From Medicago truncatula (lineage: Eukaryota; Streptophyta; Magnoliopsida; Fabales; Fabaceae), in NCBI RefSeq assembly GCF_003473485.1, contig NC_053048.1, positions 29,074,755 to 29,138,754 of the forward strand: a DNA stretch of 64,000 bases, written 5' to 3'. The notes beneath the pieces were generated by a model that was given only the letters and a program-made list of their open reading frames with translations, did not search any database and had not been told where the DNA came from. The translations under genes and the position numbers were made by a program. Shown in pieces: positions 9,134-38,580 of this stretch. Numbering within the stretch: position 1 is the stretch's first letter; each line of letters begins with the position of its first letter.

Positions 9134-9182
9134 AAGTATAGACATTTAATCTTTCAAAAAAAAAAAAGTATAGACATTTAAT
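9134..9182 (+). mobile_element. Micro-retroposon (a)
   Basis: A 17-nt direct repeat (AAGTATAGACATTTAAT) occurs at 9134-9150 and 9166-9182. Between them is only CTTTC followed by A10 (9151-9165). The long target duplication plus poly-A tail is the signature of target-primed reverse transcription with almost complete 5' truncation. Confidence 0.7.
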
Positions 9183-9713
9183 AGCTAATCGATGATTTTA
9201 CTTGTACAAAAAGAAAAAATCATTTTTATCAGTAAAGTCAATTTGTAATTGTTGGAAATAATCATTTTTATCAGTATAGTGGTAGAGTTGTTAGTAGCAT
9301 TGGACAAGAGGACACATATTGTAAATTAGCTCATTCTAGGAGGAAAGAATATGAAATGGTAATGCCTACAATATTATTGACATGGCATCTCAAAGGCTTG
9401 AATACAATTGCACCCATATAAGCCTATTTATAAGTGCCTGAAGATGTTTCTAGAATTAGAATAATCTAGGTCTTTGTTTGCCTTTTCTACATTAGAATAT
9501 TGTAGATGTTTTTAGGCTACAATTTAATCTAGATATTAATAGAACAATCTAGAAACATGTGGCAACTTTAAGCTATTATAGTTTTTTCTAATAGACATTA
9601 TCATTATTTTAACTAGAATATTCTAGAAATATGTATCAATTTCAACAGTAATCTCAAAAGTCATAGGTTAATATAAAATTCCAAACATCGTTTGCTAGTT
9701 GCTATTTGCTTCC

Positions 9714-10380
9714 ATGGCTTCTACCCAAACAGAGGAGGCGTATGTGCCATTCAAGCTTGTGGTGAATGAAGAGAGTAACAAAGTCATGTATGCTGAAGCA
9801 GAAAAAAACTTTGTTGATGTTCTATTTAGCTTCTTAACATTTCCATTAGGAACCATTGCTAGACTTGTTCAGAAGGAATCTAGCATGGGTCCAGTTAACG
9901 TTGGATGTCTAAACACATTCTATCATAGTGTTGCTGATCTTGGTGATGAGTGTATGTTGAGTGAGACAACCAAACAAATGTTGCTGCAACCTATTAACTT
10001 CGCAGAAGATTATTGCAACACTCTTAAACTTAACATCGATGACACTCAACCAACAAAGTTCCTCGTGTGTACCAACTTTAATGGCTGCTACTATCGCGAT
10101 ATGACCACATCGACATATAAAGATAAATATAAATGTCGATGTGGTCATTCTTTTACAGTTCAAATTTTCCTTAAACATATCCGCCAAGGATTTGTTACTG
10201 GTGTAACTACTTTTGTCATAACTGATGATCTCACTATCAAGCCAAATTGTATTGCCTATACAAGCTTTAGTTTGTTCAACGAGTTTGGCATAAAAAAACC
10301 CTAGTTCGGTAAAAGAAGTGGTTCTGAATGTCACTAAAGAAAAGATTTTGTATTTGAACATCACTATTGTCTATAACAGT
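9714..10380 (+). pseudogene. DUF674 family gene A, broken after exon 1
   Basis: The frame from ATG 9714 (MASTQTEEAYVPFKLV...) is clearly homologous to exon 1 of the two complete DUF674 genes downstream. It shares NKVMYAEA..NFVDVLFSFLTFPLGTIA, the CNTLKLNIDDTQPTKF block, the CRCG cysteines and FVITDDLTIKPNCI. An A7 run at 10292-10298 (six A in copies B and C) shifts the frame and gives TAG at 10302-10304. Beyond it the original frame still reads SSVKEVVLNVTKEK. The exon 1 donor GT is changed to AT (AAAGAAAAG|ATTTTG) and no exon 2 follows; an unrelated OTU fragment does. It is therefore a truncated pseudogene. DUF674 proteins are plant-specific and of unknown biochemical role. Confidence 0.88.
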
Positions 10381-10383
10381 TAG

Positions 10384-11052
10384 AGGAATGATATTTGAAC
10401 AACCATTTTTTGATAACTTTTGCGACAATTTTCTTTGCCAGAGACTACCTTACCTCAATGTGTACGCCGCCAAAAAAAAAGTTCATCGCTAAAGGGGCTC
10501 CAAAGAAAAATAAACATTTCATTCAATCGACGAAGAGATCGCCTTCGCTCTAGGAGATTGTTGATTCTCAAGAACAACAGACACAGACTTCACAAACAAA
10601 TTCAACAGGGGCAAGTAAAAAAAGTGCACGGTCAATTCCCAAAAATCATAACACAAATCCCAAAAATCCTAAGTCAATTCTGGATGCATGACTTTATTGA
10701 AAAGGTGGTGGAAGTTGCTGGTGATGGTCGTTGTGGGTTCCGTGCAGTTGCAGGTCTACGTAACTTGAGTCTTGACGATCACCAAATGATCTGTTACCAG
10801 CTGCACAAAGAGATAATAAGTGAAGGAAATACTCGTTATCAGCGGATGATTAATGATGATAGGCGATATAAAGAGGTCTTGGGTGCTCTAACCTTTTATG
10901 GTATTGGTCATGTACCACCGGATAAATTGATGACCATGTCGTATATGAGTTTTCTCAATGCTCAGAAATACAACCACGCAGTTGTTCTACTGTCCACTCA
11001 GAAAGTGGAATCTGAAACATTTTTTGCTTATAATTTGGGACAAAGAAAATGA
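10384..11052 (+). pseudogene. OTU-like cysteine protease fragment
   Basis: An open frame at 10420-11052 (210 codons) carries IEKVVEVAGDGRCGFRAVAG, the D-G-x-C nucleophile motif of OTU proteases. It is followed by a helical stretch with WLL/QMICYQLHKEI-type spacing and KLMTMSYMSFLNAQKYNHAVVLLS, which resembles plant OTU proteins often found with MULE/FAR1-type elements. The basic N-terminal part is not conserved. The C-terminal part with the catalytic His is missing: after ETFF the frame enters a MITE (11024-11087), which supplies AYNLGQRK and the stop. The leader at 10384-10440 is a TIR of the MITE family at 25767-25951. This is probably a dead transposon-borne fragment; expression is unknown. 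Confidence 0.7.
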
Positions 11053-11087
11053 GTTTTTTATGCTTATAATTTGGGATGGAGGGAGTA
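11024..11087. mobile_element. Truncated Stowaway-like MITE
   Basis: The right terminus GCTTATAATTTGGGATGG plus AGGGAGTA and the internal copy GCTTATAATTTGGGACAAAG match the complete element at 18945-19291. Only about 64 bp remain. It provides the last codons of the upstream OTU frame. The adjacent 11088-11110 is a CA/TA simple repeat. Confidence 0.75.
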
Positions 11088-11312
11088 TATATACACACAC
11101 GCACACACATAATTATTTATTAGTGCAATTTTATCATAATTGTCTTTTACTTGATTTTTTATCTTCAAAAAAGTATGAATTCACGAAAACATGCAAAAAC
11201 TGTCCAATATTGTCTATATTGTGACATTTCGGATAATACAATCCGGACATGTTCGGATTACGTTCTTCGAAAGACATTTTCGAGAAAAAAAGATAGGGCG
11301 TGTGATTATACT

Positions 11313-11593
11313 TACTCCGTCCCAAATTGTATGTCACTTTAGAAAAAATATTTGTCCTAAATTGTATGTCACTTTAGAATATCAATGAAACATTAATGTT
11401 ACTTTTTCTATTATATCCTTAACTATTTATTACTCTTTTCTTTTTCAATTCTTTCATTTATCTTTCCCATATCATTTAATAAGGATAATTTTGTAAAACA
11501 ATTCATAATATCTCTTTCCCACACAATATTAATTACATTTCTTAATATGTGTGAAATGTCCAAAACATCATACAATTTGGGATGGAGTGAGTA
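11313..11593. mobile_element. Stowaway-like MITE
   Basis: Left TACTCCGTCCCAAATTGTAT and right ATACAATTTGGGATGGAGTG plus AGTA are inverted copies. A second internal copy of CCTAAATTGTATGTCACTTT lies 40 bp in. It is about 280 bp and AT-rich. The 400 bp that follow, up to the DUF674-B promoter, show nothing coding. Confidence 0.8.
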
Positions 11594-11989
11594 TTTAGAG
11601 TAGGAAAATTAATAGTCTAATTTGAATATTTTATATATTTGCATTTAATTAAATCAGTCTAAGAAACTGCTGCTGCACTTAGGAATCATCAGAAACCCTT
11701 CGGTACCGTAAGCCGTAATAACCACACTTCTGCTGTTGTGGTTATCCAAATCATTAATCAAACTCTCGATCATGCAAAAGTCCTATCTTAAGTTTCCAAG
11801 AATTGAAATAATAATTTCAAGAATTACAATTAATAAAAAATACTGGCCCTTAAGTAAAAGCAGCGAGAATATGAATGTTCCCTTATATACCCATTATATA
11901 TATGAATGTTCAAATCGTTCTAACAAAGTTACCTTCAAGTTCAACATAAGACTTTAAACTCCTCAATTGATAGTTCTTATCAATTTACC

Positions 11990-13687
11990 ATGGCAACAAC
12001 TACTCAAGTAGAGGAGCATGTGTCCTTGAAACTTCTGTTAAATGAAAAGGGTAACAAAGTCCTATTTGCAGAAGCAGGGAAGGATTTTGTAGACATTCTC
12101 TGTAGCTTCCTCACAATACCTTTAGGAACCATTGCCAAACTTGTAGAGAAGGAATCTAGCATAGGGCAAGTTACAGTTGGTTGTCTAAACTCTCTCTATG
12201 GAAGTGTTGCAAATCTGGATGAAGGTTGTTTCTCAACTAAGACAACCAAACAAATGTTGCTGCAGCCAATAAACTCAGCTGAAGATTATTGCAACACTCT
12301 TAAACTCAACATTGATGACACTCAACCAACAAAGTACTTCGCATGTACCAACTATAACGCGTGCTACTATCGCGATATGAGTATGACCTCATCAACATTT
12401 TTTTTTTTTTGGTACAAGACCTCATCAACATTTAAAGATAATCTTAAGTGTCGTTGTGGGAATTATTTTACCCGTCCAGTTTTACTTAAACATCTCCCCC
12501 AAGGATTTGTTAATGGTGTAGCTACATTTGTCATAACTGATGATCTCACTATCAAGCCAAACTGTATTGACTATACAAGCTTTAGCCTGTTCAAGGAATT
12601 TGGCGTAAAAAACCCTAGTTCGGTAAAAGAAGTGGTTCTGAATGTCACCAAAGAAAAGGTTTTGTATTTGAATATTGCGTTTGTTTATAAGTTATAACTT
12701 CTCTCTTCAATTTTTGATCGATTATAATTACTATTTGTTATAGGTACTTGATCTGCTTAAGTGTTCTTTGCTTTCCAAGTCAACTTTGACAGATTTGTTC
12801 CTAGAGAAGAAACCATCCCTTGAGAGATCAAGGTTTATATTGGGTGATGTTGAAATTAGTGACAATATCCAAATCAATCTAAAGCTAGTTATAAGAAAAT
12901 CAGATAACAAGGTATTGTATGCTCAAGGACAGCAAGATTTTGCAAACTTACTTTTAAGTTTTCTTACATTTCCTTTGGGTGGAATTGTTCGAATATTTGG
13001 AGAGAATTGTTCCTTTGGAAGCATGAATGGATTATACAAGAGTATAGTTGATTTGGATGAAAACCAATATTTGACATCAATGGAAGCTAAGAACAGGCTT
13101 GTTGATCCTTGCATTGCCCCACAGTTGAAGTTAAGCAAGCAGATTTTACCAATTCTTGATCCTGGTGTTCTTGAATACTATGGTTATTTTGAAGGCGTTG
13201 TTACCAGTAATAATATTATCCAGGTTCAAATTTTCAAACCTGGTGTAGATAAGAGCTATGCTGGAAATTTTAAGAAACTGAATTCATCGAATGTCATGAA
13301 TCCTGTTGACGGTTATGTTAAGGGTCCAGCTATGTATTTCGCTACAGATGATCTGGTTGTAGCACCCTTAACTCCAATCTCAGCTTTGGGTTTACTTAAC
13401 CGTTTGAATACTCCTCTTAATGAATTGAAGGAAAAAGTTATCACAATTGGCATCAAGGAGGTAAAGCATAGTAAAATTTATATTAGATTTTAAATCTTCA
13501 GTTTATTTAAATATTCTAAGTTTGGGGCGTGCCAATTTTGGTGCGTTAGTTTGAAAAATAAAATGCTTATGTTTACCTTATTTACTTGCTGCAGTGTCTT
13601 AGCATATTGAAGGCTTCTTTGACATCAACATCTGCCCTAACAAATGGTTTGGCTCACATGTTAACTGAAGTTAAGGAGGAGAAATGA
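11990..13687 (+). CDS. DUF674 family protein B (3 exons, 492 aa)
   Basis: Proposed exons are 11990-12658, 12744-13460 and 13595-13687, all in phase 0, with GT...AG introns of 85 and 134 bp. The joined frame is open for 492 codons, a usual size for DUF674. The protein is two diverged halves. Exon 1 has LKLLLNEKGNKVLFAEA..DFVDILCSFLTIPLG and exon 2 repeats the pattern as LKLVIRKSDNKVLYAQG..DFANLLLSFLTFPLG. Each half is followed by a G..N.LY.S...LDE motif and ends with a TDDL segment. Exon 1 also has paired cysteines (CRCG). The start is set by homology with copies A and C (all begin M-A-[ST/AT]-T). An 11-codon insertion in exon 1 (phenylalanine run) comes from a micro-retroposon. The function of the family is not established. 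It is an intact gene by sequence. Confidence 0.9.
12385..12433 (-). mobile_element. Micro-retroposon (b) inside DUF674-B exon 1
   Basis: The 16-nt repeat GACCTCATCAACATTT occurs at 12385-12400 and 12418-12433. Between them lies T10 then GGTACAA (12401-12417), i.e. on the minus strand TTGTACC plus poly-A. Copies A and C have no such insertion at the same place. Repeat plus insert is 33 nt, so the reading frame is kept and 11 residues are added. Confidence 0.75.
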
Positions 13688-14260
13688 AAAGAGTTTACAC
13701 TTTGTTGTGTGTTTCAAATCAAGTTTCTTGGAGGAAAGTTAGCAATGGACAAGGAGACAATAATGCTAGGTTTACTGTTTTGAAGTTGTTATTTCTATTC
13801 TATTGTTTTATTTAGTTTTGAATTTTTAATAGTATCATTTGATTTCCCTGCAAGCCATATTTGCATCTTTCAAGTTTCTGCTCGTGTTTCTGTCGAATTG
13901 GATATTTGGTTATATTATATCTTCATTGCATTTATGTTTTTGTGTGTGTGCGCGCCTAAACCTTGTAACCATGAAACACTGTCACTCATCAAGGGTTCAA
14001 CCAGTTATGAACTATTCCACTTTGACTTGTGATGGTTGAAATTAATACATGTTAAAATATCGTTTTAAGTTAAAAATTATCATTTTTTAAGTTTTTATTG
14101 GAGCTTATGATGAACACGAATTCACTACAGTCGCTATGACCACATCAAGAACCAATTAGTCAAGACCAGAGGGTAAGATATCTTAAGCAAATATTGTGTT
14201 TGCTTAAAAAATATGTTTAATCCGTAGATTGACATCAGCTGGTAAATATTTAACAAATTC

Positions 14261-14541
14261 ATACTCCATCCATTTTAAAATGAGTCGTTTTTAGCCGATT
14301 GGACATCGATTAAGGAATGAAATGAAATAATCGTTAAACATAACACATTTACTAAACTGCCTTTACTTTATAAAAATAAGACAAACTTAAAGTTGCATTG
14401 AAAATTGTGTGAGAGAAAAGTTGGAGAGGGTAAAGTTGGAAGAAAAAAAAATTAAAGTTGTATTGGAAATGTAAAGTGACATTCATTTTGGGACAATTTT
14501 TTTTAGTTAAAATGATACTCATTTTGAAACGGGGGGAGTAT
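14261..14541. mobile_element. Stowaway-like MITE
   Basis: Left ACTCCATCCATTTTAAAATG plus AGTC and right ACTCATTTTGAAACGGGGGG plus AGTA are inverted repeats. It is about 280 bp. 13690-14260 is the 3' flank of DUF674-B and holds nothing else recognised. 14542-14867 contains TATATAAACACGG at about 14750, possibly an old LTR promoter. Confidence 0.75.
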
Positions 14542-14867
14542 TTGTTTTGGACTAGGCCTTGGCCCACGATGCCGACTGAATGCATGGCGGTTAGATAATC
14601 CATCATCACCAGTTGAGTCAAGACGAAAGACTTCATGTGTGTCTTACCGCACATGGTGGGACTCAATCCACTAGGATAGTCAATGTGATCTCTGTTGAAG
14701 TCATGCTTTTCTGTCGGATTTCACGGATCAGTTATTGCTTGGTTCCCCTATATAAACACGGCTTCACGCCACAATGAAGAACATACACAATTTTCACCAC
14801 TTTTTCACTGACTCTCGAATTGAGTTTACTTTAAAATTGACCGAAGAATTTGCTCCACCGTTTATTC

Positions 14868-16105
14868 CCAGGTAAGAGCGGCATGGTTCAGTAAACCATA
14901 AAAACCAAACCGAACCGAACCAAATTGTTGAGATGGTTCGGAAAAACTAAATCGAACCGTTTAAGGTTTGAAAGTAATTAAACTGAACCAAAGTTATTGT
15001 TCGGTTAACCATTTTCTTATCTTTGAACCAATCCGAACCAAAACCAATATTTGAATCGAAATGTATTGAATAAGCTGTTTTGAATAAGTTGATTTTTAAA
15101 ATAAGCTGTTTTGAATAAGCCATTTTTTAAAAAGTTGTTTTGAATAAACTGTTTTTAAAATAAGTTGTTTTACATAAAATAAGTTGTTTGGAATAAGTTG
15201 TTTTTGAAAATAAGTTGTGTTGAATAAGTTGTTTTGCATAAAATAAGTTGTTTTGTATAAGCTGTTTTTAAAATAAGTTGTTTTTTAAAATGAGTTGTTT
15301 TGCATAAAATAAGTTGTTTTGAATAAGTTATTTTGCATAATATAAGTTGTTTAGAATAAGCTGTTTTTAAAATAATATGCTTAGCATAAAATAAGTTGTT
15401 TTGAATAAGTTATTTTTAAAGAGAGATCATAATAAGTTGTTTTTTCATAAAAAGATAGATAAGGTTAATGGTTCAGGTCGGTTCGGTTAATTGTTGTTAT
15501 TAACAGTTCAGTTCAGTTAGTGAATTGTTATCAAAATAATGGTTCGGATCAAAATTTATGAAATCGTTCGATTAATTTTGATACGGTTCAGTTAACCGGT
15601 TCGGATTGACTTTTAGAGTGATGGGGCAGCTTTGGCTACCCCAAATTTTTTTATTTCTATTGAATGACTAAGTATATTATTATAGTTAGATACCCGAATA
15701 ATATAATTTTTAGTTATTTGAAATAAGTTTACTTGTAAAAAAATTAGCATAAATAAAAAAGTTAAAAAATTATTACTTGATTAATAAACTTATTTATTTT
15801 ATTTGACATTTCGGTCTCTATAACAACTATAGAGAAAATATTTTTAACAATAAAAATTATCAATAGTCAAATAAAATGGACGATAGTTTCATGTAAATAG
15901 CTTATTTGTTTATGTTGAAAAAGAAATTGTTAGTCTATTTTACAATTATTCAATTATAAATATATTTGACTGCTTATAGCTTAATTTTTTAAAGATTAAA
16001 CATATTAATCCCTTAAATTTAATATATAAAATTTTAATTTTAATTTACCTCAAAAAATTCTTTGCATTTGTCCCCCTCGTGAAAATTAGTATAGCTTCGC
16101 CACTG
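14868..16105. mobile_element. Inserted element with AAGTTGTTTT minisatellite
   Basis: The block is flanked by the 11-nt direct repeat CCGTTTATTCC (14857-14867 and 16106-16116), which dates it as one insertion. It begins CAGGTAAGAGCGG and ends TTCGCCACTG. The outer parts carry repeated ACCGAACCGAACC/GGTTCGGTT motifs in both orientations, and the middle is a degenerate minisatellite. No ORF is present. The CAG...CTG ends and subterminal repeats fit a non-autonomous hAT-like element. The right third (15618-16105) may be a second element. Confidence 0.6.
15060..15440. repeat. Degenerate AATAAGTTGTTTT minisatellite
   Basis: About fifteen imperfect units of the type GAATAAGTTGTTTT, often alternating with GCATAAAATAAGTTGTTTT, give a mixed period of roughly 18-33 bp. 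It lies inside the inserted element at 14868-16105. Confidence 0.8.
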
Positions 16106-16477
16106 CCGTTTATTCCTTTTCCAGTGGAGGTATTTTTAAAGTTGGAATTTAATCTTGTGCTATATGCAACTCCAGCTGGTGAGAAACAACTTTGTGGTGC
16201 CGTTTAGCATGGACTCATAGATGTATTGGTCCATACTGGATCAAGATTTTTGACCATTAACTTGAACAAACTTATAGATCCTATCTTGTATTTGTTGTAT
16301 TATATCTCTCCACCCATCATTTTTTTATTCTTTCTCTTTATTCTCTTCCTCTCTCCAATAGAGAAGTGTCGAAAACTGTTTCCTCCTCCTAGCTCTCTCT
16401 CCTTACCTAACTGCATAAACGCATAAACATGAGTTAACTAAACTTGCAGATTTGAGCTCATGTGTTCCTAATTAATA

Positions 16478-17548
16478 GGCTAAAGTGCATTTTTCCCCCT
16501 CCCTTAATTTTCAAAAACTTGTAATTTTGGCCTCCTAAGTACAAAAACTACAATTTTGGCCCCCTAAGATTTAGCCCCTTTGCATCTTTGGTCCTTTTGG
16601 TCAATTTTGACTTATTCAACGCCTACGTGGCCTGCCACGTGTGTAATTAATTAATTAAAAAAAACAATTTTTAAATTAAAAAATCAGAAGAAAAAAAATA
16701 AAATAAAAACTGAAGGGACGTGATTCATCCAAAACATGATAACCACCTTGTAGACATACCCTCATTGCTTGCAAACTTGATTTCTTTCTTCTTGTCTCCT
16801 TCCATAACAACAACATGTTTTTCAATCATCTGTAAGGGAATTACACATTTCCCTAGCAGTTCCTCTTTGTTCGGCACAACCCTATCTTCCACACTTCAAA
16901 TTAGCGGCTCTTCAAATGGTTCTGCAGCCACAAACATCAAATCCTCATTCCACATCGGATTGATACTCCTGCTCCGAGAGATTCTATTCCTCAAGGTCTT
17001 CTCTAGTTGTGGATTGTAATGATTAATGATAAAAAAAATTTGATTTATGTTCATTGTGGTTATTTTTTAATTTTTGGGTTTCATTAATGGGGTAGTTTAT
17101 GGGTTTAAATGTAAATAATGAACTTTTGTAAATGATGAATTTTTGGATTTAAATTTGTGTTAATGTTGGATGATGATGATGAAACTATTTTGGGTTTAAT
17201 TTTTGAGTGTTGTTATTTCTGAATGAGTGTTGGGTGAAAAAGATGAAGGTGTTGTACTGGGTTCATCAAGATCACGTCTCTTCCTTTTCTTTTTCAATTT
17301 TATGAATTTTTTTATTTTTTTAATTTCATTTATTTAATTTAAAAATATTATATGATTTTTTTAATTTTTTTAAATTAACTAATTACACACGTGGCCTACC
17401 ACATAAGCGTTGAATAAGTCAAAATTGACCAAAAGGACCAAAGATACAAAGAGGCTGAATCTTAGGGGGCTAAAATTGTAGTTTTTGTAATTAGGGGGCC
17501 AAAATTGCAAGTTTTTGAAAGTTATGGAGGGAAAAGTGCACTTTAGCC
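16478..17548. mobile_element. Pack-MULE with 9-bp TSD
   Basis: A perfect 9-bp target duplication TAATTAATA (16469-16477 and 17549-17557) brackets termini GGCTAAAGTGC...GCACTTTAGCC. The TIRs extend about 170 bp each, including ACACGTGGC and GACCAAAAGGACCAAAGAT-type blocks. These are diagnostic of Mutator-like elements. No transposase is present. The interior holds a host-gene fragment (16718-17020, minus strand), which makes it a Pack-MULE. Confidence 0.88.
16718..17020 (-). pseudogene. Captured MCTP/FTIP-type C2 gene fragment
   Basis: On the minus strand the frame reads SINPMWNEDLMFVAAEPFEE then PLI, a stop, SVEDRVVPNKEELLGK, and in a shifted frame MRVCLQGGYHVLDES. These are hallmark segments of a C2 domain and the following linker in plant multiple-C2-domain and transmembrane proteins (MCTP/FT-interacting protein family). 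A TGA replaces the usual Leu codon after PLI, and a frameshift separates the last segment, so it cannot make a normal product. It lies wholly inside the MULE, consistent with transduplication of exon sequence. Confidence 0.82.
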
Positions 17549-18875: not shown

Positions 18876-18944
18876 GATCATTTCCCACTTTTAAAATCTC
18901 TCCCTCGTCCACTCTCCCTTTACTTTTCCGCTAGTTGAAGGAAG

Positions 18945-19291
18945 TACTCCCTCCGTCCCGAAATATAAGCAAAAAAAACTCATTTTCTTTGTTCTAAAAT
19001 ATAAGCAAAAAGGACAAACTTTTATTCTATTTAATCTTATTTTTAAAAAAATATCATCTTTTCCAATAATTTTTTTTGCTTATTCTCATGAAATTAAATG
19101 CAAATTACATTTAATTTTCTCTCTCTTCCATTTTTTCCATAACCAATATCCAATGAAAATTGTTTTTACATCTTCCCATGAAACTTATTTCAAAGAAAAC
19201 ACAAAAATCTATGCTACAAACTTTTATGCTTTAGTTTTCTTAATAAGTGTGATTTTTATTTTTTTACTTATAATTTGGGACGGAGGGAGTA
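18945..19291. mobile_element. Stowaway-like MITE, full length
   Basis: Left ACTCCCTCCGTCCCGAAATA plus TAAGC and right GCTTATAATTTGGGACGGAG-type ends (here CTTATAATTTGGGACGGAGG) are inverted. It is about 347 bp. It is the full-length relative of the truncated copy at 11024-11087. Confidence 0.8.
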
Positions 19292-19523
19292 GATCCTAAA
19301 AAGTTTCACTTTACTACAACATCAACCACACTTTTTTTTTTGAGGCAACAAAAATTTATTGTATAATATGAAATTGAAAACATGATTAAAAGACGCAGAT
19401 ATGGCTAACAGGGTAGGGAAAACAAACGATGCCATTCAAAATTCAAAACTTAACAAACTTCGGATCTCAAAACAAATTGCTGTAGAATTGAAATAACACA
19501 CAACAAAGTGTAAACTGATCTTT

Positions 19524-21140
19524 TCATTTCTCCTCCTTAACTTCAGTTCACATGTGAGCCAAACCATTTGTTAGAGCAGAAGTTGAAGTCAAAGCAGCCT
19601 TCAATATGCTAAGACACTGCACAAGACAATAAGGTAAACATAAGCAATAAGATATGAATAATGTGAAAATTAAAAATTTAATATAAATTATATACTATGG
19701 TTTACCTCCTTGGTGCCAATGGTGACAACTTTTTCCTTCAAATCATTAAGAGGAGTTTTCAGTCGGTTAAGTAAACCCAAAGCTGAAATTGGAGTCAATG
19801 GTGCTACATTAACCAAATCATCTGTAGCAAAATACATAGCTGGACCCTTGACATAATCCTCACCAGGATTCACCCCATAACGTAAATTCAGTTCCGTAAT
19901 ACTTCCAGCACAAATGGTCTTATCTACATCAGTTTTGAAAATTTGAACATGAATAATACTATTACTTTCAACATAACCATAATATTTATGAACACCAGGT
20001 TTAAGAATTGGTAATATCGACTTGCTTAACTTCAACTGTGGGGAAATGCAAGGATCAACAAGCCTGTTCTTAGCTTCCATTGATGTCAAATATTGGTTTT
20101 CATCCAAATCAACTATACTCTTGTATAATCCATTCATGCTTCCAAAGGAACAATTCTCTCCAAATATTCGAACAATTCCACCCAAAGGAAATGTAAGAAA
20201 ACTTAAAAGTAAGTTTGCAAAATCTTGCTGTCCTTGAGCATACAGTACCTTGTTATCTGATTTTCTTATAACTAGCTTTAGATTGATTTGGATATTGTCG
20301 CTAATTTCAACATCACACAAAATAAACCTTGATCTCTCAAGGGATGGTTTCTTCTCTAGGAACAAATCTGTCAAAGTTGACTTGGAAAGCAAAGAACACT
20401 TAAGCAGATCAAGTACCTATAAAAAATAGTAATTGTAATCGATCAAAAATTGAAGAGAGAAGTTATAACTTATAAACAAACGCAATATTCAAATACAAAA
20501 CCTTTTCTTTGGTGAAATTCAGAACCACTTCTTTTACCGAACTAGGGTTTTTTATGCCAAATTCCTCGAACAGACTAAAGCTTGTATAGTCAATACAGTT
20601 TGGCTTGATAGTGAGATCATCAGTTATGACAAAAGTAGCTACATCATTAACAAATCCTTGGGGGAGACGTGTAAGGATAATTGGATGGGTAAAAGAATTC
20701 CCACAGTGACATTTATGTTTATCTTTATACGTTGAGTTGGTAATATTACGATATAAGCAGCCAATAGAGTAGGTGGCACATGTGAAGTACTTTGTTGGTT
20801 GAGTGTCGTCAATGTTGATTTTAAGAGTGTTACAATAATCTTCCGCTGAGTTGATTGGTTGTAGAAGCATTTGTTTGATTGTCTCGTTAGAGACACAACC
20901 TTCATCCAGATCTGCCACACTTTTATACAGCGAGTTTAGACAACCGACTGTAACTTGCCCTATGCTAGATTCCTTCTCTACCAATCTCGCAATGGTTCCT
21001 AAAGGCATTGTTAAGAAGCTACAGAGAATATCCACAAAGTCCTTCCCTGCTTCTGCAAACAAGACTTTGTTACCATTTTCGTTCAAAAGAAGTTTCAAGG
21101 ACACATGCTCCTCTGCTTGAGTAGAAGTAGTAGCAGCCAT
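19524..21140 (-). CDS. DUF674 family protein C (3 exons, 480 aa)
   Basis: Exons in coding order are 21140-20502, 20416-19706 and 19616-19524, all phase 0, with GT...AG introns of 85 and 89 bp at the same places as in copy B. The joined frame is open for 480 codons plus TGA. It starts MAATTSTQAEEHVSLKLLLN; the frame is open further upstream, but this ATG aligns with A and B. Domain plan is as in B: two diverged repeats with NKVL[FY]A and SFLT[MF]PLG motifs. The first ~125 residues encoded by exon 2 differ from B at only about two positions, then the middle diverges strongly before near-identity returns at YVKGPAMYFATDDL. That mosaic suggests gene conversion. It is an intact gene by sequence; the molecular function of the family is unknown. 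Confidence 0.9.
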
Positions 21141-21423
21141 GTTAAACTGATAAGAACTAGCAAGTAGCAATTGTGAAGTTTGAAATTGTGTTGAGCATAA
21201 TTTTGTTACACATTTTGAGTCACATATATATTTAAGGGTACATAGTGTGATTGCAAAATCGTTCAGGGTCTTGATAACGAGTGTATTAAAGACATTTATT
21301 AAAGAAATCAAATGTACACCTTTTACATTTGAAAAAGTTGAATACACAATTTTCCAATGTAAAATTTCTATATTTATATCTTTAAGCGATCTTTTAAGGA
21401 CACTTTTAACATTTCTCAATACG

Positions 21424-24726: not shown

Positions 24727-24734
24727 TAAAGATT

Positions 24735-24806: not shown

Positions 24807-25284
24807 GAGATATTACAAACTTGGTATAACTTGCACAACAATGTTCCAAGCTTTTATCCATGCCACTTGCTTAAGAGCAATAGAGTATTTTTCAAGCTAG
24901 ATTTTTCATATTTTGTAACATCCTCTAACGATCTAACATCATTTTCTAATATGTCACTTTGTAAGACAAGTTAATTAGTTACATCACTAGATCTGATAAA
25001 CCTCTCTAGTATAATCATCTAAACATATGAATTAACTCATTATAATAGAATTTACTATGTCAATTAGTGACAATTAATGGTACGTGTCATAGAGATTGGA
25101 CAGTGAAAAATCTAGGTAACTTTAGATATCTAATGAGATAATTATTATGTGACATTGGAACAAATTAGTTAATGTTATTATTAGTAATAGATCATGGGTC
25201 AATTTGGTCAAATCATATTAATATTATCCAAGAATACTTTGCATAGTTTGAGTGAGAAAATGAAAATAAATAAATAAATGTTGA

Positions 25285-25495
25285 AACCCATTTGGGGTTG
25301 GTCTAGTGGTTGACTTGAGATCTTAGAGTTTGCTCTTTCAAAGGTCTCAGGTTCGATTCCCTCTGGTGCTAATTTCGGTGGGTTAAGTTCAGAGCTTGCT
25401 CTGGCTTTAAACGGGGCCTCCGCAAGTGGGCGGTGGGATTGATCTCCTCGAATTAGTCGATTCTTGGATCGGATACCGAGTTTAAAAAAATAAAA
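25285..25495 (+). mobile_element. tRNA-derived SINE
   Basis: A box-like GGTTGGTCTAGTGGTTGA and B box GGTTCGATTCCC are in the right order about 50 bp apart, followed by a non-tRNA body and an A-rich tail at 25482-25498. A 17-nt target duplication AAATAAATAAATGTTGA is at 25268-25284 and 25496-25512. The small minus-strand ORF crossing it is a by-product. Same family as 30312-30506. Confidence 0.88.
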
Positions 25496-25766
25496 AAATA
25501 AATAAATGTTGATAAATGAAAGGGACTGGTGATCACAAGCTGGGTTAGATGGACTTGGTTGCAAGGTAAACTTCACACATCTACCGTTAATACTTGCTAT
25601 TTAAGGAAGAAAAGGAAAGTTGCAATGTTCACAACCATATTGTTTAGTTAGCAATGTCGGTTGTTAATTTGATGATAGTGTACTATAAACAAAGTCTAAC
25701 AGCTTTTGATGTTATTCTTGTTGAAAATGACATTTCCTCGGGAGAATTTAAAATATATTTTTTAAG

Positions 25767-28189: not shown

Positions 28190-28192
<3 letters not shown>

Positions 28193-28238
<46 letters not shown>
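28193..28238. repeat. (TA)23 microsatellite
   Basis: Uninterrupted TA dinucleotides for about 46 bp inside the hAT-like element. Confidence 0.95.
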
Positions 28239-28241
<3 letters not shown>

Positions 28242-28720
28242 ATTTAAAATTATTAGTTTAATAAATATTTTATATATTATTAAATTAATGTTTTGCTAAA
28301 ATTCTATTTTTAAATTTATTCCATTTCGATTTTTAGACTTTATGAAAATTAAAGTATGAATGATTTTATTTCAGTTTTATACTTCAGAAAAATTAAACAT
28401 AACATTGCACTAAAAATATTTTGAACATAACAAAACTCAACGTAACACCTCCTCAACAATAAAAATAAACTCTCAATAAAAAAAAAAAATGTAACAACAC
28501 TTTTTCTATTTTCTTGACAGGATGTTATTTTCTATTTATTATTATTTAAGTGTCTCTATTTTATAAAATGAATAGACAGTACCAAAATGTATTATTATAT
28601 ATGTATATGGGATATTTTGTCAAAAAAAATCCATATGAAATATTACTTCAAAAATCTATATGGAATATTATATACCATCTACATGTATATCAACGATGGA
28701 CGATTTTTCTAAAAAAACCA

Positions 28721-28768
28721 AATAATGGATGATTATCTTTAAAAAAAAAAAAAACAATAGATGATTAT
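28721..28768 (+). mobile_element. Micro-retroposon (f)
   Basis: AATAATGGATGATTAT (28721-28736) and AACAATAGATGATTAT (28753-28768) flank CTTT plus an A12 run. Two mismatches in the 16-nt repeat suggest an older event. The insert is almost the same as at 9151 (CTTTC plus A10). Confidence 0.55.
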
Positions 28769-28884
28769 AAAAAAAAAAAAAAAAAAAAACTAAATAGTTT
28801 TCGTAACAAAAAAGGACAATTCTACTTGGTAATACCTGAAAAAATATCCCAAAAATAATGCTTTTATTATTTTAATAATAAGAC

Positions 28885-29784: not shown

Positions 29785-29792
29785 TATATAAA
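29785..29792 (+). promoter_or_regulatory. TATA box of the small hydrophilic gene
   Basis: TATATAAA-type element (CTATATAAAG) about 80 bp before the ATG at 29871, in a promoter with no ORF. Confidence 0.6.
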
Positions 29793-29870
29793 GACACAAC
29801 TAGCTGCTCGGTTTCTTATTCATACCCTCCCTTGAAACACAAACCTTGTTTTCTTTGATCATTTTGAACT

Positions 29871-30068: not shown

Positions 30069-30311
30069 CTAACTAGTTAATTTCTTTTTCCAATAATGTT
30101 TCTTGCTATGGTATTATATGTTCTGTAGAATATATTTTGTCATGTGCTAAGGAATAAATAAGAATTACATTTTAAGTTTGTTTCCTAAGGTAATTGTACT
30201 GCTGATCTATGATAAAGCATTTTTCTTTGTTGGTCCCTCTTCTATACTTGTTCTGTCTCAAACTATTAATTTTTATGTTGAATTGATACTTTGCAAGAGT
30301 AATATGATAAC

Positions 30312-30506
30312 TTTTATCTTTTTTTTTATAAAAAAACTTGGTATCTGATCAAAGAATCGATTAATCCGAGGGGACTAATCACACCGGCCACTTGCGAGGG
30401 CTCCGTTTAAAGTCAGAGCAAGCTCTGTATGGACTTAGCCTACCGAAATTGACATCAGAGGAAATCGAACATAAGACCTCTAGTGGAGTAAACTTCAAGA
30501 TCCCAA
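30312..30506 (-). mobile_element. tRNA-derived SINE, 5'-truncated
   Basis: The reverse complement aligns along most of its length with the SINE at 25285-25495: poly-A tail (here T-rich at 30319-30336), CGAGGGGACTAATC, CACTTGCG..GGCTCCGTTTAAAG, CAGAGCAAGCTCTG and a degenerate B box (AAATCGAACATAAG). The A-box end is missing. Confidence 0.75.
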
Positions 30507-30538
30507 TTTCAAAAACATGAATACTATCCAATTTTAAG

Positions 30539-30580
30539 CTGTTACTTTTGATTTTTTTTTGACAAACCTGTTACTTTTGA
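30539..30580 (-). mobile_element. Micro-retroposon (c)
   Basis: A perfect 13-nt repeat CTGTTACTTTTGA (30539-30551, 30568-30580) flanks T9 then GACAAAC (30552-30567). On the minus strand this is GTTTGTC plus poly-A. Confidence 0.7.
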
Positions 30581-30861
30581 ATTAGATTCCTAGGTGGTGG
30601 TCAATAGTGTATATGCATATTGTGGTTCCAAATATTACAATGTAATTTTATTGAAGGTCAATAAAATGACAATGCCACTTTGATGTTGTCAAACTTAGTC
30701 CAAATATTTACTGACATCATGTTTTGTTTTTCTTGTCTACTTATACATAGCTGATATTTATAAATATCAGCATAGGGAAGGGGCAAAAATGCTTTGAGAC
30801 TTCTCAGAAATTTGAAATCAAATACATTGATATGTTTTCTATTGATTAAGTTTGATTCATT

Positions 30862-31672
30862 TAGGATGTGTTTGGTTTAGAAAAGAAGTTGTGAAGAGAG
30901 AAATATATAAGAGAGAAAAAGATGAGAAATAGAGTAGATTTGATGTATTGTTTGGTAGAAGAGAGATATAAAAGAAATAGAGAAGAAAGAAGTGTTGATT
31001 ATTTTTAGAAGTACCAAAATACCCCTAACTAATAAACCTTCAATAAAAATTAATTTATTAAATAACTTAATCCAATTTTTAATTTAAATTGTTGATGACA
31101 ATGATGCTGATTTTTTTGACAAATGATGAAGATTATTATTAAAAATTAATCATTTCATTAATTTGTAACGTCATCCAAATAAATTATAACTCTTTTTTTT
31201 TTATTCTTATTGGAAATCATCCGTTCAATAAAAGCAAAAAGGAAAAGAGTGAAGAAATAAATAAATAAATTTAAAAAACAGCTTAATTATCTACATCCCG
31301 CTTCTCCTACATATATGCAGCTTAATTTCATGTGCGAAATTTTCTATTTTGCTTCAGCTTGTCTCCTACAACAACTTCCCTTTGTTTTATCCTTTATATT
31401 GGATAATCATTGGTGCAATTTCTGAAAAATAAATCATAAATGAAATATGAATACAAGGGTAAAAATGGAACACCAAAATTAAGGCACCTCTCTCTCTCTC
31501 TCCTGTTTCTTCGATGTGAAGAGGAGAAAACAAAAAGCACTGGGTCTCACAAATTTTTAGTCTCTCTTCTATCTTTTTTTGCATTCCAAATAAGAGAAAT
31601 TTACCATCTCTTCTCTATTTCTCTCTTCTCTGTCTCTCTCTTCCTTATCTCTCTTCGACCAAACAGAATGTT
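30862..31672. mobile_element. hAT-like MITE, ~810 bp
   Basis: Left TGTGTTTGGTTTAGAAAAGA and right TCTTCGACCAAACAGAATG are inverted, continuing as GAGAGAAATA/TATTTCTCTC purine/pyrimidine-rich arms. Two overlapping small ORFs (31387-31682) sit in CT-rich DNA and look spurious. Confidence 0.55.
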
Positions 31673-32181
31673 AAATAAGTAGAATTAGGGTCCGTTTGTT
31701 ACGGATTAAAATAAAAGTGATTTTGACATAAAATAATTTAGAGATTATGTTTTAGAGATTCTTTAAAAAACGAATCTATTTTATGTTTTTTTTTTTTTAA
31801 AGTGATTTTTAGTTTGTTTGGATACAACTTTCTAAAAGTGATTTTTTATTATAAAATTACCATAAAGGACACAAATTTCTTTCAAATATAACATGTTTGT
31901 CCAAAAAAAAATTACTTTTTTATGTATGAAAACAAGTATGTTAATTAAAAATGCATTTACGTTGTTAAAAAAACATACTATCTACATATTTGTCACATTC
32001 AAAAAATTTACACAAGATATTACATAAAATTATCAACATGAATTCAAATAAAATGAGTAACATAACATATTCCATGAAGAACAATTAACATATCATATTT
32101 AAAAAAATATTAAAGCATAATTATAGTATCTATACTCGGTTTCATTCATTGTCCATCGAAAATAAATATATAAACATAAAA

Positions 32182-33513
32182 CTAGTGTTGTCCTCTTCTA
32201 GGAAATTGATCTCTAATAGCATTTCTCATTTCTTCAATGTGTTTGATATCTTCTTGTGTTGGATCTTGCCATTCATTATGTTCAGGCACACTCTTATCAT
32301 CTTCATCACTGACATTTTGCTCATTGTCTTGTAACTCATTAATATTCTCTAAATTCTCAAGAATCGATATATCACTCGAGTCTTTTCTTCTAATAAAATT
32401 GTGAATTGCGAAACATGCCCATATAATTGAAATTTGAGTTTGAGGTTTAAAATTGGTCATATTTTGCAATATTCTCCATCTTGCTTTGCAAACACCAAAT
32501 GTTCTTTCAATAACACTTCTCAAACTAGAATAACGATAATTAAATATTTCATTTCTTTATCTGAAACTCGGAGCAAGTCGAAAATGTGGAAGATGATACC
32601 TCGTATTCCTATATGGTCCCATGAAACCTTTGAATGATGGATATCTTGAGTCGACAAGGTAATATTTGCCTGTGCATAAGTAGGAGATGTGAAATACAAT
32701 ATTATTAAACATAAACATATAAAAAAAATAGTTGAAGTTACATGCAACTAACCTTCAGGCGAATAAGGGAATTTTAACCTCGGTGTACGAAGAGTTTCCA
32801 TAAAAATCTTAGCATCATGAACAGATCCTTCCCAACCACTTAATGCAAATGTAAAACACATTAAAATCACACACAACCATGACATTGGTGCTAGTATATC
32901 CTTTCCTATTGAAATAAGGTATTTGTTTATCGGCTGGGACATGTATAGCGATATGGGTGTCATCTATTGCCCCTATACAATCTTTAAAGTAAGGCCAATA
33001 TCGATCATCTTCTTTAATGTAATTAGAGGCAACATAGTGCATCTAGTCAGAAGGTCTGATAATGTGATTCCCCAACTTGTAAACGGCTATTAAAACTCTA
33101 TGGAAATGATTATGAATAGTTTGACCTGAATGTTGGAAGCCTCCTTGGACGTTTCTATATGTGGCTCCATGACCTATCATATACAAGAATTAAGCAACAC
33201 TTTCTTCAACTCCGATGTTTTTAGTTGGTGTCAAACCGTATTTATTGGTTAGTTCCCATACCAATTGCTGGAAGACATGTTTCCTCATTCGGAGTTGCTC
33301 AAACAATGTGTTGTCATTTCCATTTATCAGTTCTCTATACCACATGTGACCTGTGAGAATTGATGTAGTTTTCTTTTCTTACACAACATATTTCAACACA
33401 TGATATGTGACTAAATAGGCTGCCAAAACTGTTGCAATATGATAGCTACTATTATGTTCATAATCAATTTCCATTTCTAAATTACTATCACTCTCATCCG
33501 AGCTTTGGGACAT
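32182..33513 (-). pseudogene. Harbinger DDE transposase (HARBI1-like), broken
   Basis: The minus-strand frame starts MSQSSDESDSNLEMEIDYEH and shows the nuclease core: [10 protein letters not shown] (first Asp), [20 protein letters not shown] (second Asp) and [20 protein letters not shown] (Glu), then an acidic tail ending PRRGQH. The catalytic residues are still legible. The frame is interrupted by stops after VLKYVV, after GVEESVA and after IRPSD, a 2-nt loss near 32895 (after VVCDFN) and a further break at about 32560. It cannot encode a full transposase. It would cut and rejoin element ends with the Myb-like partner. Confidence 0.87.
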
Positions 33514-33731
33514 CCTGTGCCACAACATTTAAACTAAATTAATACATAAAAGAGAGAAAATATATAAAATATTTGATTTAAATATTGTTAAATAATACGT
33601 ATCCAAATAACTATTAAAGTAGCCAATATCAAGTAAGAAAAACTATCATAGTACTCTAACATAATTTTTATTAACTTTCATTGTATCAAATAAAATAATA
33701 ACTAATTATCATTGCTCAAATAAATATTCAA

Positions 33732-34767
33732 TCATTGATGATGCTCCTCGGAAAGAGTGCCTAGCCAATCAAAAGCCATGTTAGGATCTTTCTTCAAGAG
33801 GTGAAAAAATGTTGTTCTGTTATCTTTATTGGCATGGAGTTTCATAGCAGAAAAGTATAAATGTGATCCTTGTACTAAGGAAGGAATCTCATCCAACATT
33901 GTCAGACACTTATCATAACTATAATGATCCTCAAATATTGGTGATTTATGATTCATCCCATCAACAATACGATCAAGAGATCGTTGAAGTTTTTCTGCTG
34001 TTCCCATCTTTCCTTTTCCGATATTTTTCCTCTTTTTCAAACCAATATTTGAAGGAGTTGGTGTTGCATTTACTTCAACATTATTACCAACTTCAAAGCT
34101 ATCATCTTCTCCTTCATTATCAATATTCATATTATTTTCATGACCTTCAAAAGCAACCCTTTCTTCTTCACCTAGCACTTCAAAAGCCGGTGGATCTTGA
34201 TACGGCTTTAAAATAGAAAATCCAGTAACTACCTGACCCTTGAAACATTTATCCAACAAATCAAGAAATTTAGGTCCCCCAATCTTCCATTTCAAAACAT
34301 CAGGATCCTCCCAGATATCAAATAAAAAATAAATAAATATGTAAACAAATCATTACAAGAAAGATAGATATAAGGGAAAAAATTAATAATTACAAAGTTA
34401 CAAAGTCAAACAGAAACACACCTTACTCTTAGCAGTCCACCTGTCATCATTAACTTTGACGGTATTCTTATCATGATCCCACCCAAGTCCGGTGTCTTTT
34501 TCAACTAATTTTGCAAATGATGCAAATTCCCTTTTTAAGGCATCCAATCTATTTTTCAGTTGAAAGCGGTTATAAGCATAGGTTGTCCTCTCTTGAAACT
34601 TAGTTTGAATGTTCTTCCATCCATCTTTCTTAAAATGTGAAGTTGGCCTATTACCGGTATCAACTTCTTCAACACAAATTTTCAAAAATATCTGTTTTGT
34701 GATTGTCCCATTTTGCGGCAATTTTTTCATCTCCATCAGACCCTTTCAAATCTTTTTTGGGTGCCAT
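33732..34767 (-). pseudogene. Harbinger ORF1 Myb/SANT-like protein, broken
   Basis: Two coding blocks, 34767-about 34422 and about 34305-33732, are separated by an apparent intron. The first has NRPTSHFKKDGWKNIQTKF and a Trp-rich SANT-like helix set ending DDRWTAKSK. The second starts DPDVLKWKIGGP and ends FDWLGTLSEEHHQ. The translation from ATG 34767 (MAPKKDLKGSDGDEK) meets a TGA after FENLC-type sequence because of a small indel near 34688. Such proteins bind the element ends and assist the nuclease. Confidence 0.75.
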
Positions 34768-35908
34768 TCTAGTTCTAATACATTCAATGAAGATCAAATA
34801 TCTATAATAAAAAGTGTTGAAAACTATTTAACTAAAATCTCTTGGACATATATGTGTCATTCTAGTTCTAATACATACATACTATTAAAATTCAAAAAAT
34901 CTAAACTTAAAACACGAGCAAGATGATTAGTTGAAAAAGATGGATTGTTCTTCCATATCATGTGATACTATATATATGATATTTAGCTACTACATATTAA
35001 TAATAGCATTTGTTCATAATTTAACCTGAATCAATACCTAACTAAAGTGATCTAAGAATAGGGATCAAACAATGCTATATATGTAAACAAATTATGAATA
35101 GTTAAGCATGCCATAAAACTATTGATTTACCAAATTATTACTCCACATATATTTTGCACAAGAAACACAAGAATGATAAATTTATCACTAGCATTTGTTC
35201 ATAATTTAATTTGCTTATGCACTCATATTGCCGAATACAAAGTATCATATTATTTTTTTATAAAAAAATTAACAAATATTCATCGGTTTAGCATTTGACA
35301 CAATACTGCAAGAGTAGGAGACAAGCAGTTGGTGAAATAGCACAATACAAAAGCGTTCGTCAATTTCTTGCCATTGGTTTATATATATATATATATAAGC
35401 CCCACACCATGGCAGGACAGGGCACCCAAACAATTACCCTCATCAACAGCACCGCAAAATAGAAGCAATAGTGATATATACAAACAGAAAAAACATCCAA
35501 TATAGACAAAACAACACAAAATATATGATAATGGAAAGAGAAACATGAAAAAAAAAATATACAGGTTCAATTATGAATGAATCAAAAAGATAATAAAATT
35601 GCTAACCTTCACAACTTAGATGATCTGCAGCAAAAATTAAAAGAGGGAACTCACTTGTTTAAAGAATAGAGAGAAGAATAACGAATAGGCTGTGAAAAAA
35701 ATGAAGACTAGTCTTTGTGTATATATAGCAAAACAAGGATATGATTGGAATTTTAGTTTGTTTTAAACATATCTTTTTTTGTTAAAATCTCGTAACAAAT
35801 TTCTCTCTCCTCTAAAAAAAAGTTGCTCATAACAGCTTCTCATTTGAATCTGTTTTTAGATTATTTTTAGATTTTGATTGTTTTGAAAATCTGTAACAAA
35901 CAGATATA

Positions 35909-36882
35909 GCCCTCGTTTGGATAAACAACTTATATAGATGCTTATAGTATTAGGGCTTATAATATTAGAGCTTACATCATAAGCTCTACTTGATAAGCTA
36001 TTTATGTTTGGATATGTACACTAAAAAGTACTTACATAAATTGAAGTGTTTGGATGTGACATTACATAAGCAATTATCGAAATTTTAAATATTTTTAATT
36101 TAATAAAAAAATCAAAGAATCGAACCTCAATTATCAAGATATTTTTTGATAAAATTAATCAAGATGTAAAAAAACAATATTATAATATATTAATTATAAT
36201 TATATATATATAGTATAATCAATTTTCGTCCTTAAAAAAAATATCAATATTCATATAAGACAAAATTAACATTCGATGTGTAAATAAATAGTCTAAACAT
36301 CACTATACAGAAGTATAATAATATATGATAAGCTTTCTTTAAAAAAAAAAGTATAATAATATAAATATAAACTTGAGAAATTATGATTGTAAACTTACCG
36401 TATATATAGATATTAATGTACAGTTTGTTACCAAAAAAAGACAAGTTAAGTTTGTTTTTTTTATTCAGTTTCATTTTGTTACGTAATAAAAAAATAATAA
36501 AAATTATCCTTAGAAAAAAATTTAGTTACGTGTGTTACTTTAGTAAGATAAGTATATAGCAATTTTGTTACTCATGCACAACCAAAGATAACTAACATTA
36601 TAATTAAAATATATGTTTTTTTTTTCTAAAAACAAAAAAATAAAATAAAAATATATGTTTTGAAAAAGTGGATCCAGAGAAAATCGAATGAGGTTACATA
36701 AATTCATAAGCTCCTTGTTAAGCCGGAGGGTAAGTTGAAAATTTAGGCTTATTAAAATATGGCATAAGCAGCTTATGAAATTATGATAAACTATTTTTAT
36801 TTATTTACCCAAACACCTTTAAAAAGGCTTATGGGAGTAGATAAGCCCACATAAGCTCAAAATAAGCCAATTCAAACGGGGC
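35909..36882. mobile_element. Nested hAT-like MITE
   Basis: Left GCCCTCGTTTGGATAAACAA and right CAATTCAAACGGGGCC are inverted termini. Inner copies of AAGCTTATTT/CTTATGGGAGTAGATAAGCC-type motifs occur. It separates the Harbinger right end from its body. No ORF of interest. Confidence 0.65.
36311..36363 (+). mobile_element. Micro-retroposon (d)
   Basis: The 15-nt repeat AAGTATAATAATATA (36311-36325, 36349-36363) flanks TGATAAGCTTTCTTT plus A8 (36326-36348). It lies inside the nested MITE, so it is younger than that element. Confidence 0.65.
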
Positions 36883-37226
36883 CATAATATTAAAAAAAGT
36901 GATTATTTTGTTCAAAAAAGTGATTTTATTATTATTTTTTTTTATAAAAAAAAAGTTGTAACAGACGGGCCCTTAAGAACAAGAATATGAACATAATTAT
37001 TGCAAATTCCAGCAAATATTTAGGTACATACACCATAATTTGTATGCAAGTTAATTTGACAAGAGCGTCATTTTTTTTGCATTGAATATCATGTCATATT
37101 TCAATGTAACGAAAAGGCGTAATGTTTGAAAAAGATAAACACATATTGGTTTTTTTTAAGTCCAATCACAATACGGGAGTTAGAATATACACACACAAAA
37201 AGTGGCTATACAATGACTCATTCGCA

Positions 37227-37868
37227 ATCCAAGTGACTTTCTTAAAGCATCGTAGCGGACTCTTCAAGAAAGTCAATGAGCTTTGCACCCTTTGTGGTGT
37301 AGATGTTGCTCTCGTTGTATTCTCACCTAGTAAAAAGGTATTTTCTTTCGGTCATCCAAATGTTGATATGGTCATAGATCGCTATCTCTCTGGGGTCCCA
37401 TCGCAAAACAACAACACCATAGAATTTATTGAGGCTCATCGTAGCACCAAAGTGTGTGAGCTCAATGCTATGTTGATTCAAATCAACAACACACTAGACG
37501 AGGAGAAAAAGTGTGGTGATGAGTTGAGTCTTTCATGCAAGGCGTTGAAGGCTCAATTTTGGTGGGCTTATCCGATTGATGGAATGAATAAGGCTCAGCT
37601 TGAATTATTCAAGAAGATGTTGGTGGAGCTTAAGAAACTTGTTAATCAACATGTTGATAGGAGTGCAATTCAGGGTGCTACTGCTCACACTTTTCCATTT
37701 TCTGTTGGTAAAGATTTATCCTCTAACATCCCTCTCCATTATCAGCCAAATCCTCAACAAATTGAGATGTTTTCGCCACAAAATTTTCATAACCCTATGT
37801 TGCAACCTCATTTAATTGGTTTCAACAATATGGGAAGAGGAAGATATGGACCCCCCGGATTTTATTGA
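37227..37868 (+). pseudogene. Type I (M-alpha) MADS-box gene lacking its N-terminus
   Basis: From codon QVTFLKHRSGLFKKVNELCT the frame is a type I MADS domain ([32 protein letters not shown]) followed by a weak coiled region (LNAMLIQINNTLDEEKKC) and a Pro/Asn-rich tail to TGA 37868, close to AGL61/62-type proteins. The preceding ORF (ATG 37122) encodes unrelated residues (MFEKDKHILVFFKSN). The basic N-terminal strand of the MADS domain (the G-R-x-x-I-E-M-K part) is missing, so DNA binding should fail. Its 5' flank shares CACACAAAAA.TG.CTATACAA with the second fragment at 38904. Confidence 0.82.
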
Positions 37869-37889
37869 AGTTCTAGAGTCATTAAGTTC

Positions 37890-38180
37890 ATATTCGCCAC
37901 TTTACTTGTGTTGTATGAAAATCCATAACCAATTCAATTTCCCATCTACGCCCTCTCTTGAAACTAAAACTTTTATTTACGAGTCTAATCATATCTCTGT
38001 TATCATTTTGAACTATATAGATGACAGAGTAAAGGGTAATTATAAGTTTGTTGCCTAAAGTATACACACCGTTGATATATAATAAAACACTTTTCTTTGT
38101 TGAATCCTCTTCTATACTTGTTTTGTCTAGTAAACCGGTAATTTTTATGCAAATTTGATACTCTGTATGCTTAATGACAA
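37890..38180 (+). pseudogene. Flank-only copy of the 29.9-kb small gene
   Basis: In order and orientation this segment keeps the promoter/leader and 3' end of the 65-aa gene: CACTTTACTTGTGTT, CCCTCTCTTGAAAC, TATCATTTTGAACTAT, then directly ATTATAAGTTTGTTGCCTAA, ACTTTTCTTTGTTG, CCTCTTCTATACTTGTT and TAATTTTTATG. The equivalents are at 29775-30275. The ATG and about 280 bp including all codons are absent. The small ORFs here are not homologous to the parent protein. Confidence 0.75.
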
Positions 38181-38530
38181 TTTCATCTCTCATTTTTTCA
38201 TTTGTCTCTCCTCAATCACAAAAATAGAAAACGAGACAAAATTTCATTGTAAAAACCAAACAGAACAAACCGATCAACCAATATGTCGGTAAGCCCTATA
38301 TTAATTAATTTTAAACAATATGAATTCATCCGTCCTAATCTATTCTCATATTATCCTAAATAATGAACTTTTTAAAGTATCCATTAGAGAACTCAACATA
38401 TGAGCAAAGAATTCAACATATGAATACAAAGTTAATTGAAGTTGATAAAGACTAACCAACGGTCAAAGAATTAAACAACATATTGCAAATTTCTAGAAAT
38501 ATCCAGGTACACCTAGCTAGCATATCCAAT

Positions 38531-38580
38531 AGTTTGCTGAATAATTCTCTCAAAAAAAAAAAAAAAAAGTATGCTGAATA
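38531..38580 (+). mobile_element. Micro-retroposon (e)
   Basis: AGTTTGCTGAATA (38531-38543) and AGTATGCTGAATA (38568-38580), one mismatch in 13 nt, flank ATTCTCTC plus A16. Confidence 0.6.

Follow-up and report, generated by a model that had tools for sequence, protein, structure and literature searches.

Short poly(A)-tailed insertions between target duplications in Medicago truncatula, and their probable origin in curtailed LINE reverse transcription

Five micro-inserts and one empty site in the window

The window analyzed here is a stretch of 64,000 nucleotides (nt) of the Medicago truncatula genome (C7:29074755–29138754) with a base composition of 66% A+T, and its positions are used below unless another sequence is named. 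It contains short inserts, here called micro-retroposons, in which a few unique bases (the body) and a poly(A) tail stand between two copies of a short target sequence. An original prediction had claimed six of these, at 9134, 12385, 28721, 30539, 36311, and 38531; we retain five and reject the one at 28721. At each of the five sites, a duplication of 13–17 nt encloses 5–15 unique bases and an A tail that abuts one copy, as had been described. The duplication is exact at four sites and has one mismatch at 38531, and the body is 5–7 nt long at four sites and 15 nt long at 36311.

Bodies and tails are read on the strand that carries the A tail. On the plus strand, the insert at 9134..9182 has a 17-nt target duplication (9134–9150 and 9166–9182) around CTTTC and A10; the insert at 36311..36363 has a 15-nt AT-rich duplication (36311–36325 and 36349–36363) around TGATAAGCTTTCTTT and A8; and the insert at 38531..38581 has a 14-nt duplication (38531–38544 and 38568–38581) around TTCTCTC and A16. 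The end of this last insert recurs elsewhere in the genome. On the minus strand, the insert at 12385..12433 has a 16-nt duplication (12385–12400 and 12418–12433) around TTGTACC and A10, and the insert at 30539..30580 has a 13-nt duplication (30539–30551 and 30568–30580) around GTTTGTC and A9.

The expected structure is visible in outline at all six places. At 28721, the apparent duplication belongs to a run of diverged ~30-nt units (28695..28786, plus strand; read by eye), each of which ends in an A run, and the detector did not return this site. We also leave out of the count two structures that the detector did return, at 36602 and 48678, where the sequence is AT-rich or tandem; a further candidate at 14387 is likewise left uncounted, as its surroundings are AT-rich or repeat-rich.

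Structures of this kind exceed the chance expectation. Under a chance model in which A/T runs of 8 or more were fixed in place and the remaining sequence was locally shuffled (300 shuffles per setting), the mean number of structures was 0.03 with 3-mers (maximum 1) and 0.07 with 6-mers (maximum 2), compared with 7 in the window, a total that includes the doubtful structures at 36602 and 48678. Two mirror-image structures, in which the tail is on the other side, were also detected; the one at 48699 sits within a tandem array, and the sequence in which the one at 18961 lies is repeated at 11021.

The insert at 12385 falls within an open reading frame (ORF) at 11990–12697 that matches DUF674 in Pfam. 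The insertion amounts to a gain of 33 bp, in frame, that adds 11 residues, and it is thus an example of an insert of the tail-only type within an open coding frame. Two DUF674 paralogs in the window (9960..10180, plus strand, and 20600..20840, minus strand) have a single copy of the target; in the alignment, both lack the second copy, the T run, and GGTACAA. Both also lack 6 bp just upstream of the insert, a difference that we treat as a separate indel. The DUF674 region is itself duplicated in inverted orientation (11884–13713 versus 19495–21244, 84% identity), and a further copy is present at 9718–10376. Within the window, no usable paralogs of the sites at 30539, 36311, and 38531 were found.

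These paralogs bear on the idea that the inserts are older tandem duplications in which the spacer between ordinary tandem copies grew a poly-A microsatellite by slippage. Such a history fits the rejected site at 28721 and the mirror image at 48699 in its tandem array. However, slippage at 12385 would leave two copies of the target in the paralogs, which instead hold one copy with neither T run nor GGTACAA, and the spacers bear recurring ends, one of which is the end of a long interspersed nuclear element (LINE; see below). We consider slippage extremely improbable as the origin of the five sites.

Direct repeats of 12 nt or more at short spacing are themselves abundant in the window, with 46 pairs compared with 1.1–1.25 in Markov sequence, and an A/T run of 8 or more is present in only four of these pairs. 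The other 42 may be traces of filler repair or tandem copies that have diverged. Because such repeats far exceed chance, the duplications alone are no proof of retroposition, and the weight of the evidence is carried by the A tail, the side on which it lies, and the recurring unique bases. The repeats that lack A runs count in favor of an alternative, repair of double-strand breaks, in which staggered breaks are filled and joined around a captured patch and some patches hold an A run by chance; patch-mediated repair is also named in the parts of the literature consulted.

Frequency, polarity, and length in a genome sample

We extended the analysis to a sample of 314 kb, made up of the window, 20 evenly spaced 10-kb stretches from the first 41 Mb of C1, and five stretches along C4. 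The sample holds 367 A/T runs of 8 or more. The detector returned 31 structures with the tail beside the downstream copy and six mirror images (7 versus 2 in the window, 20 versus 3 in C1, and 4 versus 1 in C4), whereas the shuffle means for the tail-side class were 0.15 and 0.25 (40 shuffles per setting). The net excess of 25 corresponds to ~80 structures per Mb, which agrees with the earlier description of the process as frequent. If this partial sample is extrapolated to the 429,922,655 bases of the genome, the total would be ~34,000 such structures. Among A/T runs of 12 or more, 13 of 53 are tails of such structures.

The polarity is difficult to reconcile with break repair, as a captured patch has no reason to place its A run beside the downstream copy in 31 cases and on the opposite side in six.

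Insert length was compared in a strict scan that required a duplication score of 12 or more and allowed inserts of up to 1600 nt, so that longer LINE copies fall outside the comparison. Among its 26 tail-side matches, 21 have inserts of 7–27 nt (about three of the shortest resemble tandem or simple-sequence cases) and five have inserts of 45–601 nt, the 45-nt insert being a tandemly duplicated micro-insert. Of the five mirror matches, two were short and the other three measured about 700 nt. When four tandem or AT-rich rows are set aside from the 31 tail-side structures of the sample, the remaining 27 have a median body of 6 nt (4–9 nt in 22 of them), a median tail of 10, and a median target duplication of 16. 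The last base of the body is C or T in all 27, where A is ruled out by definition. The simplest account is that LINE target-primed reverse transcription quits no more than about 10 nt from the tail.

For comparison with a body-bearing insert, the window contains a likely tRNA-type short interspersed nuclear element (SINE) at 25268..25512 (plus strand), with a 211-nt insert, a 17-nt target duplication, and tRNA-like boxes recognized by eye. A diverged relative of this SINE (77.5%) lies at 30309–30506 on the minus strand and adjoins the micro-insert at 30539. In one sampled stretch (L031, 2832–2912), a micro-insert ending in AGTACC-A appears to have been tandemly duplicated later, along with its target.

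Recurring ends and a LINE that carries one of them

The original prediction held that the unique parts are partly alike. Counts of exact matches in the genome, with the reversed pattern as control, indicate that there is recurrence, but that the unique bases represent a number of distinct ends. The end at 12385, TTGTACC-A8, was counted 1007 times (reversed control, 34) and TCCTT-A14 648 times (44); the corresponding counts are 97 and 1 for TTTTGTACC-A12 and 34 and 2 for TCTTCTCTC-A8. We inspected 20 TTGTACC-A8 places, taken as every fifth among 100 matches listed, all on C1: ten are micro-inserts (body of 16 nt or less and duplication score of 10 or more), and one has a 31-nt body. Using the same definition, 12 of 20 inspected TCTTCTCTC-A8 places are micro-inserts; the rest comprise two that appear micro-insert-like by eye (L039 and L053), two that are doubtful, and four without the structure. 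Because the places were chosen by pattern, the apparent body may be shortened by bases common to target and end.

Recurrence adds to the case against break repair, which leaves unexplained why the same LINE end is found about a thousand times, with the structure at half of the 20 sampled places. We disfavor this alternative as improbable.

The TTGTACC end can be traced to a LINE. On the strand of a zf-RVT match at C1:7870268–7870525, TTGTACC-A8 follows at a distance of 844 nt. The intervening DNA (L074) keeps an open frame across an RVT_3 (RNase H-like) domain (E value, 4.1e-29), after which come a stop codon and a short 3' untranslated region (UTR) with the hairpin GGGC-TTCG-GCCC, TCTCTTGTACC, and A14; 11 nt separate the hairpin from the tail. 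A second zf-RVT match, at C8:49227656–49227913, has the variant end GGGCTTTGCCCTCTTTTGTACC and lies 842 nt from TTGTACC, compared with 844 nt on C1. Of 6220 candidate zf-RVT places, 150 were scored, and at least two of these have the TTGTACC end downstream (lists compared by eye). The earlier proposal that the unique bases be matched to LINE or SINE 3' ends therefore succeeds at 12385, where the body is a LINE 3' end; the other four sites have no established match.

The copies of this end provide a truncation profile. Of the 1007 TTGTACC-A8 occurrences, 124 include four more template bases and 78 extend into the hairpin arm, with reversed controls of 1 and 0 for the two longer patterns. Thus, most copies lack the next four template bases, and most of those that have them continue into the hairpin. 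The position of the hairpin, 11 nt before the tail, suggests that it stops the reverse transcriptase, and we consider such a roadblock a fair inference for the TTGTACC LINE. The profile makes it testable whether a 3' hairpin limits the reach of LINE reverse transcription.

Sources for the other ends were sought in several ways. The few SINEs inspected by eye have different ends. Nine pairs of longer shared bodies were found upstream of A runs in the sample. Two of these concern recurring ends. In one, L017 (near position 3975) and the minus strand of L016 (near position 9467 of its reverse complement) have 148 nt in common; with its terminal TTTTTGTC-A10, the L016 copy may be the element from which the GTTTGTC end at 30539 came. 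The other is in L019, where a CTTGT-A10 place has 57–62 nt in common with two other places. No LINE-type proteins were identified by Pfam among 20 window ORFs, in a scan that was not exhaustive, and none were recognized by sequence motifs in 67 ORFs of 130 or more amino acids from the 250-kb sample, again not exhaustively.

Interpretation and comparison with known systems

We interpret the five window sites as end products of LINE target-primed reverse transcription that halted almost at once, with a probability of roughly 0.88. The tail side, the target motif, the empty paralogs, and the LINE end at 12385 all support the earlier attribution to LINE machinery truncated near the tail. In the proposed sequence of events, a LINE endonuclease would nick the target, and the cut target end would anneal to the poly(A) tail of the RNA. 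The reverse transcriptase would then copy the tail and a short stretch beyond it (5–7 bases at four sites and 15 at 36311), after which synthesis would halt and completion of the second strand would produce the 13–17-nt target duplication. At 12385, the template was most likely a LINE with an RNase H domain ending its ORF and a 3' end of TTGTACC-A(n).

Several observations weigh against this interpretation or limit its extent. Mirror-image structures are not zero, and an empty site was read for only one of the five window sites, as the paralog alignment at 9134 is too diverged to read. Among the 20 TTGTACC places, six have no duplication, two have a weak one, and one has a doubtful body of 347 nt. 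At the target start, a pyrimidine followed by A was found in 17 of 24 cases, compared with a background of 14.8% (named doubtful rows excluded beforehand), although this test is partly biased upward by how duplication starts are assigned in detection; for leading As at the five window sites, P is 0.027. Since the counts use exact matches, mutation accounts for some of the decrease from 1007 to 124. The LINE in L074 was read through zf-RVT and RVT_3, and its reverse transcriptase and endonuclease domains lie outside that reading. The GGGC/GCCC hairpin had no matches within 14 nt of TCCTT-A8 or within 20 nt of CTTCTCTC-A6, such that a hairpin block, as tested, fails to explain those families. 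A looser pattern of hairpin plus A10 gave 69 forward and 309 reverse matches versus 46 and 14 in controls; nothing is drawn from these counts, because one place was counted several times.

A single LINE family with the GGGC/GCCC hairpin is not supported as the source of all ends, the hairpin being present for TTGTACC and not found for TCCTT or CTTCTCTC. These two families may reflect other structures, generally early stopping, or some ordinary poly(A) RNA templates. The last of these leads to an alternative in which LINE machinery acts mostly on cell mRNAs or tailed decay stubs copied in trans, and not on hairpin-stopped LINE RNA. The variety of ends, the C or T that closes all 27 bodies (A being excluded by definition), and the two recurring families that lack the hairpin are consistent with it, and the consulted sections of a review (PMC3747384) include a proposal that plant L1-clade LINEs copy poly(A) RNAs in trans. 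However, the most frequent of the ends examined is that of a LINE, and exact recurrence of ends would not be expected from thousands of different mRNAs. We regard copying mostly in trans as unlikely.

A broader proposal, which we advance tentatively and at somewhat less than even odds, is that in this legume most recognizable poly(A) retroposition may be abortive, with LINE reverse transcriptase regularly quitting within 10 nt of the tail and, in at least one family, stopped by the RNA's own 3' hairpin, and that it may have seeded tens of thousands of bodiless insertions along with a sizeable share of long A runs. If true genome-wide, methods that look for bodies would badly undercount LINE activity, and one in four of the sample's A/T runs of 12 or more would be of retroposon origin.

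The window also contains features apart from the micro-inserts. Pieces of a Ty3-type long terminal repeat (LTR) element span 56246–64000, with a gag/protease ORF, a reverse transcriptase/RNase H ORF at the window end, and a DUF7745 ORF alongside. Two Rfam microRNA (miRNA) families match in the window; one match, to MIR2680, is full-length (61666–61833, minus strand, 200 bits) and lies within the reverse-transcriptase ORF at 61490–64000 of the Ty3-type element, suggesting that this miRNA family may be element-derived. A hAT transposase ORF is present at 49877–51955, and at 44373–47165 a Plant_tran transposase ORF adjoins an ORF without a Pfam match. A plasmid collection compared with the window gave no match.

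Among known systems, patch-mediated duplications with filler, the original paper on which reportedly concerned rice, are alike in having short duplications around unrelated bases, so far as the consulted accounts describe them; an A tail, its fixed side, and a recurring LINE end would be unexpected there. No plant report of tail-only insertions was found in the literature searched, in which coverage of subscription journals was poor. In the consulted portions of the review cited above (PMC3747384), plant L1-clade LINEs and their SINEs are described as poly(A)-tailed, and the 3' end of one maize/sorghum lineage as conserved and bearing a putative hairpin. Those are families with bodies, whereas here a few bases and a tail are all that is inserted, and the hairpin has the form GGGC/GCCC. 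In human tumors, according to the available excerpts of one study (PMC4498532), L1 inserts can be as short as 1 bp plus poly(A), flanked by a target duplication, and two of six in one tested set were nearly poly(A) alone. The Medicago inserts resemble these in combining a minimal body, poly(A), and a target duplication. The tumor insertions described there are somatic, whereas those in Medicago stand in a plant reference genome, where the strict scan, which covered inserts of up to 1600 nt, returned more tail-only than body-bearing inserts, 21 of its 26 being 27 nt long or shorter.

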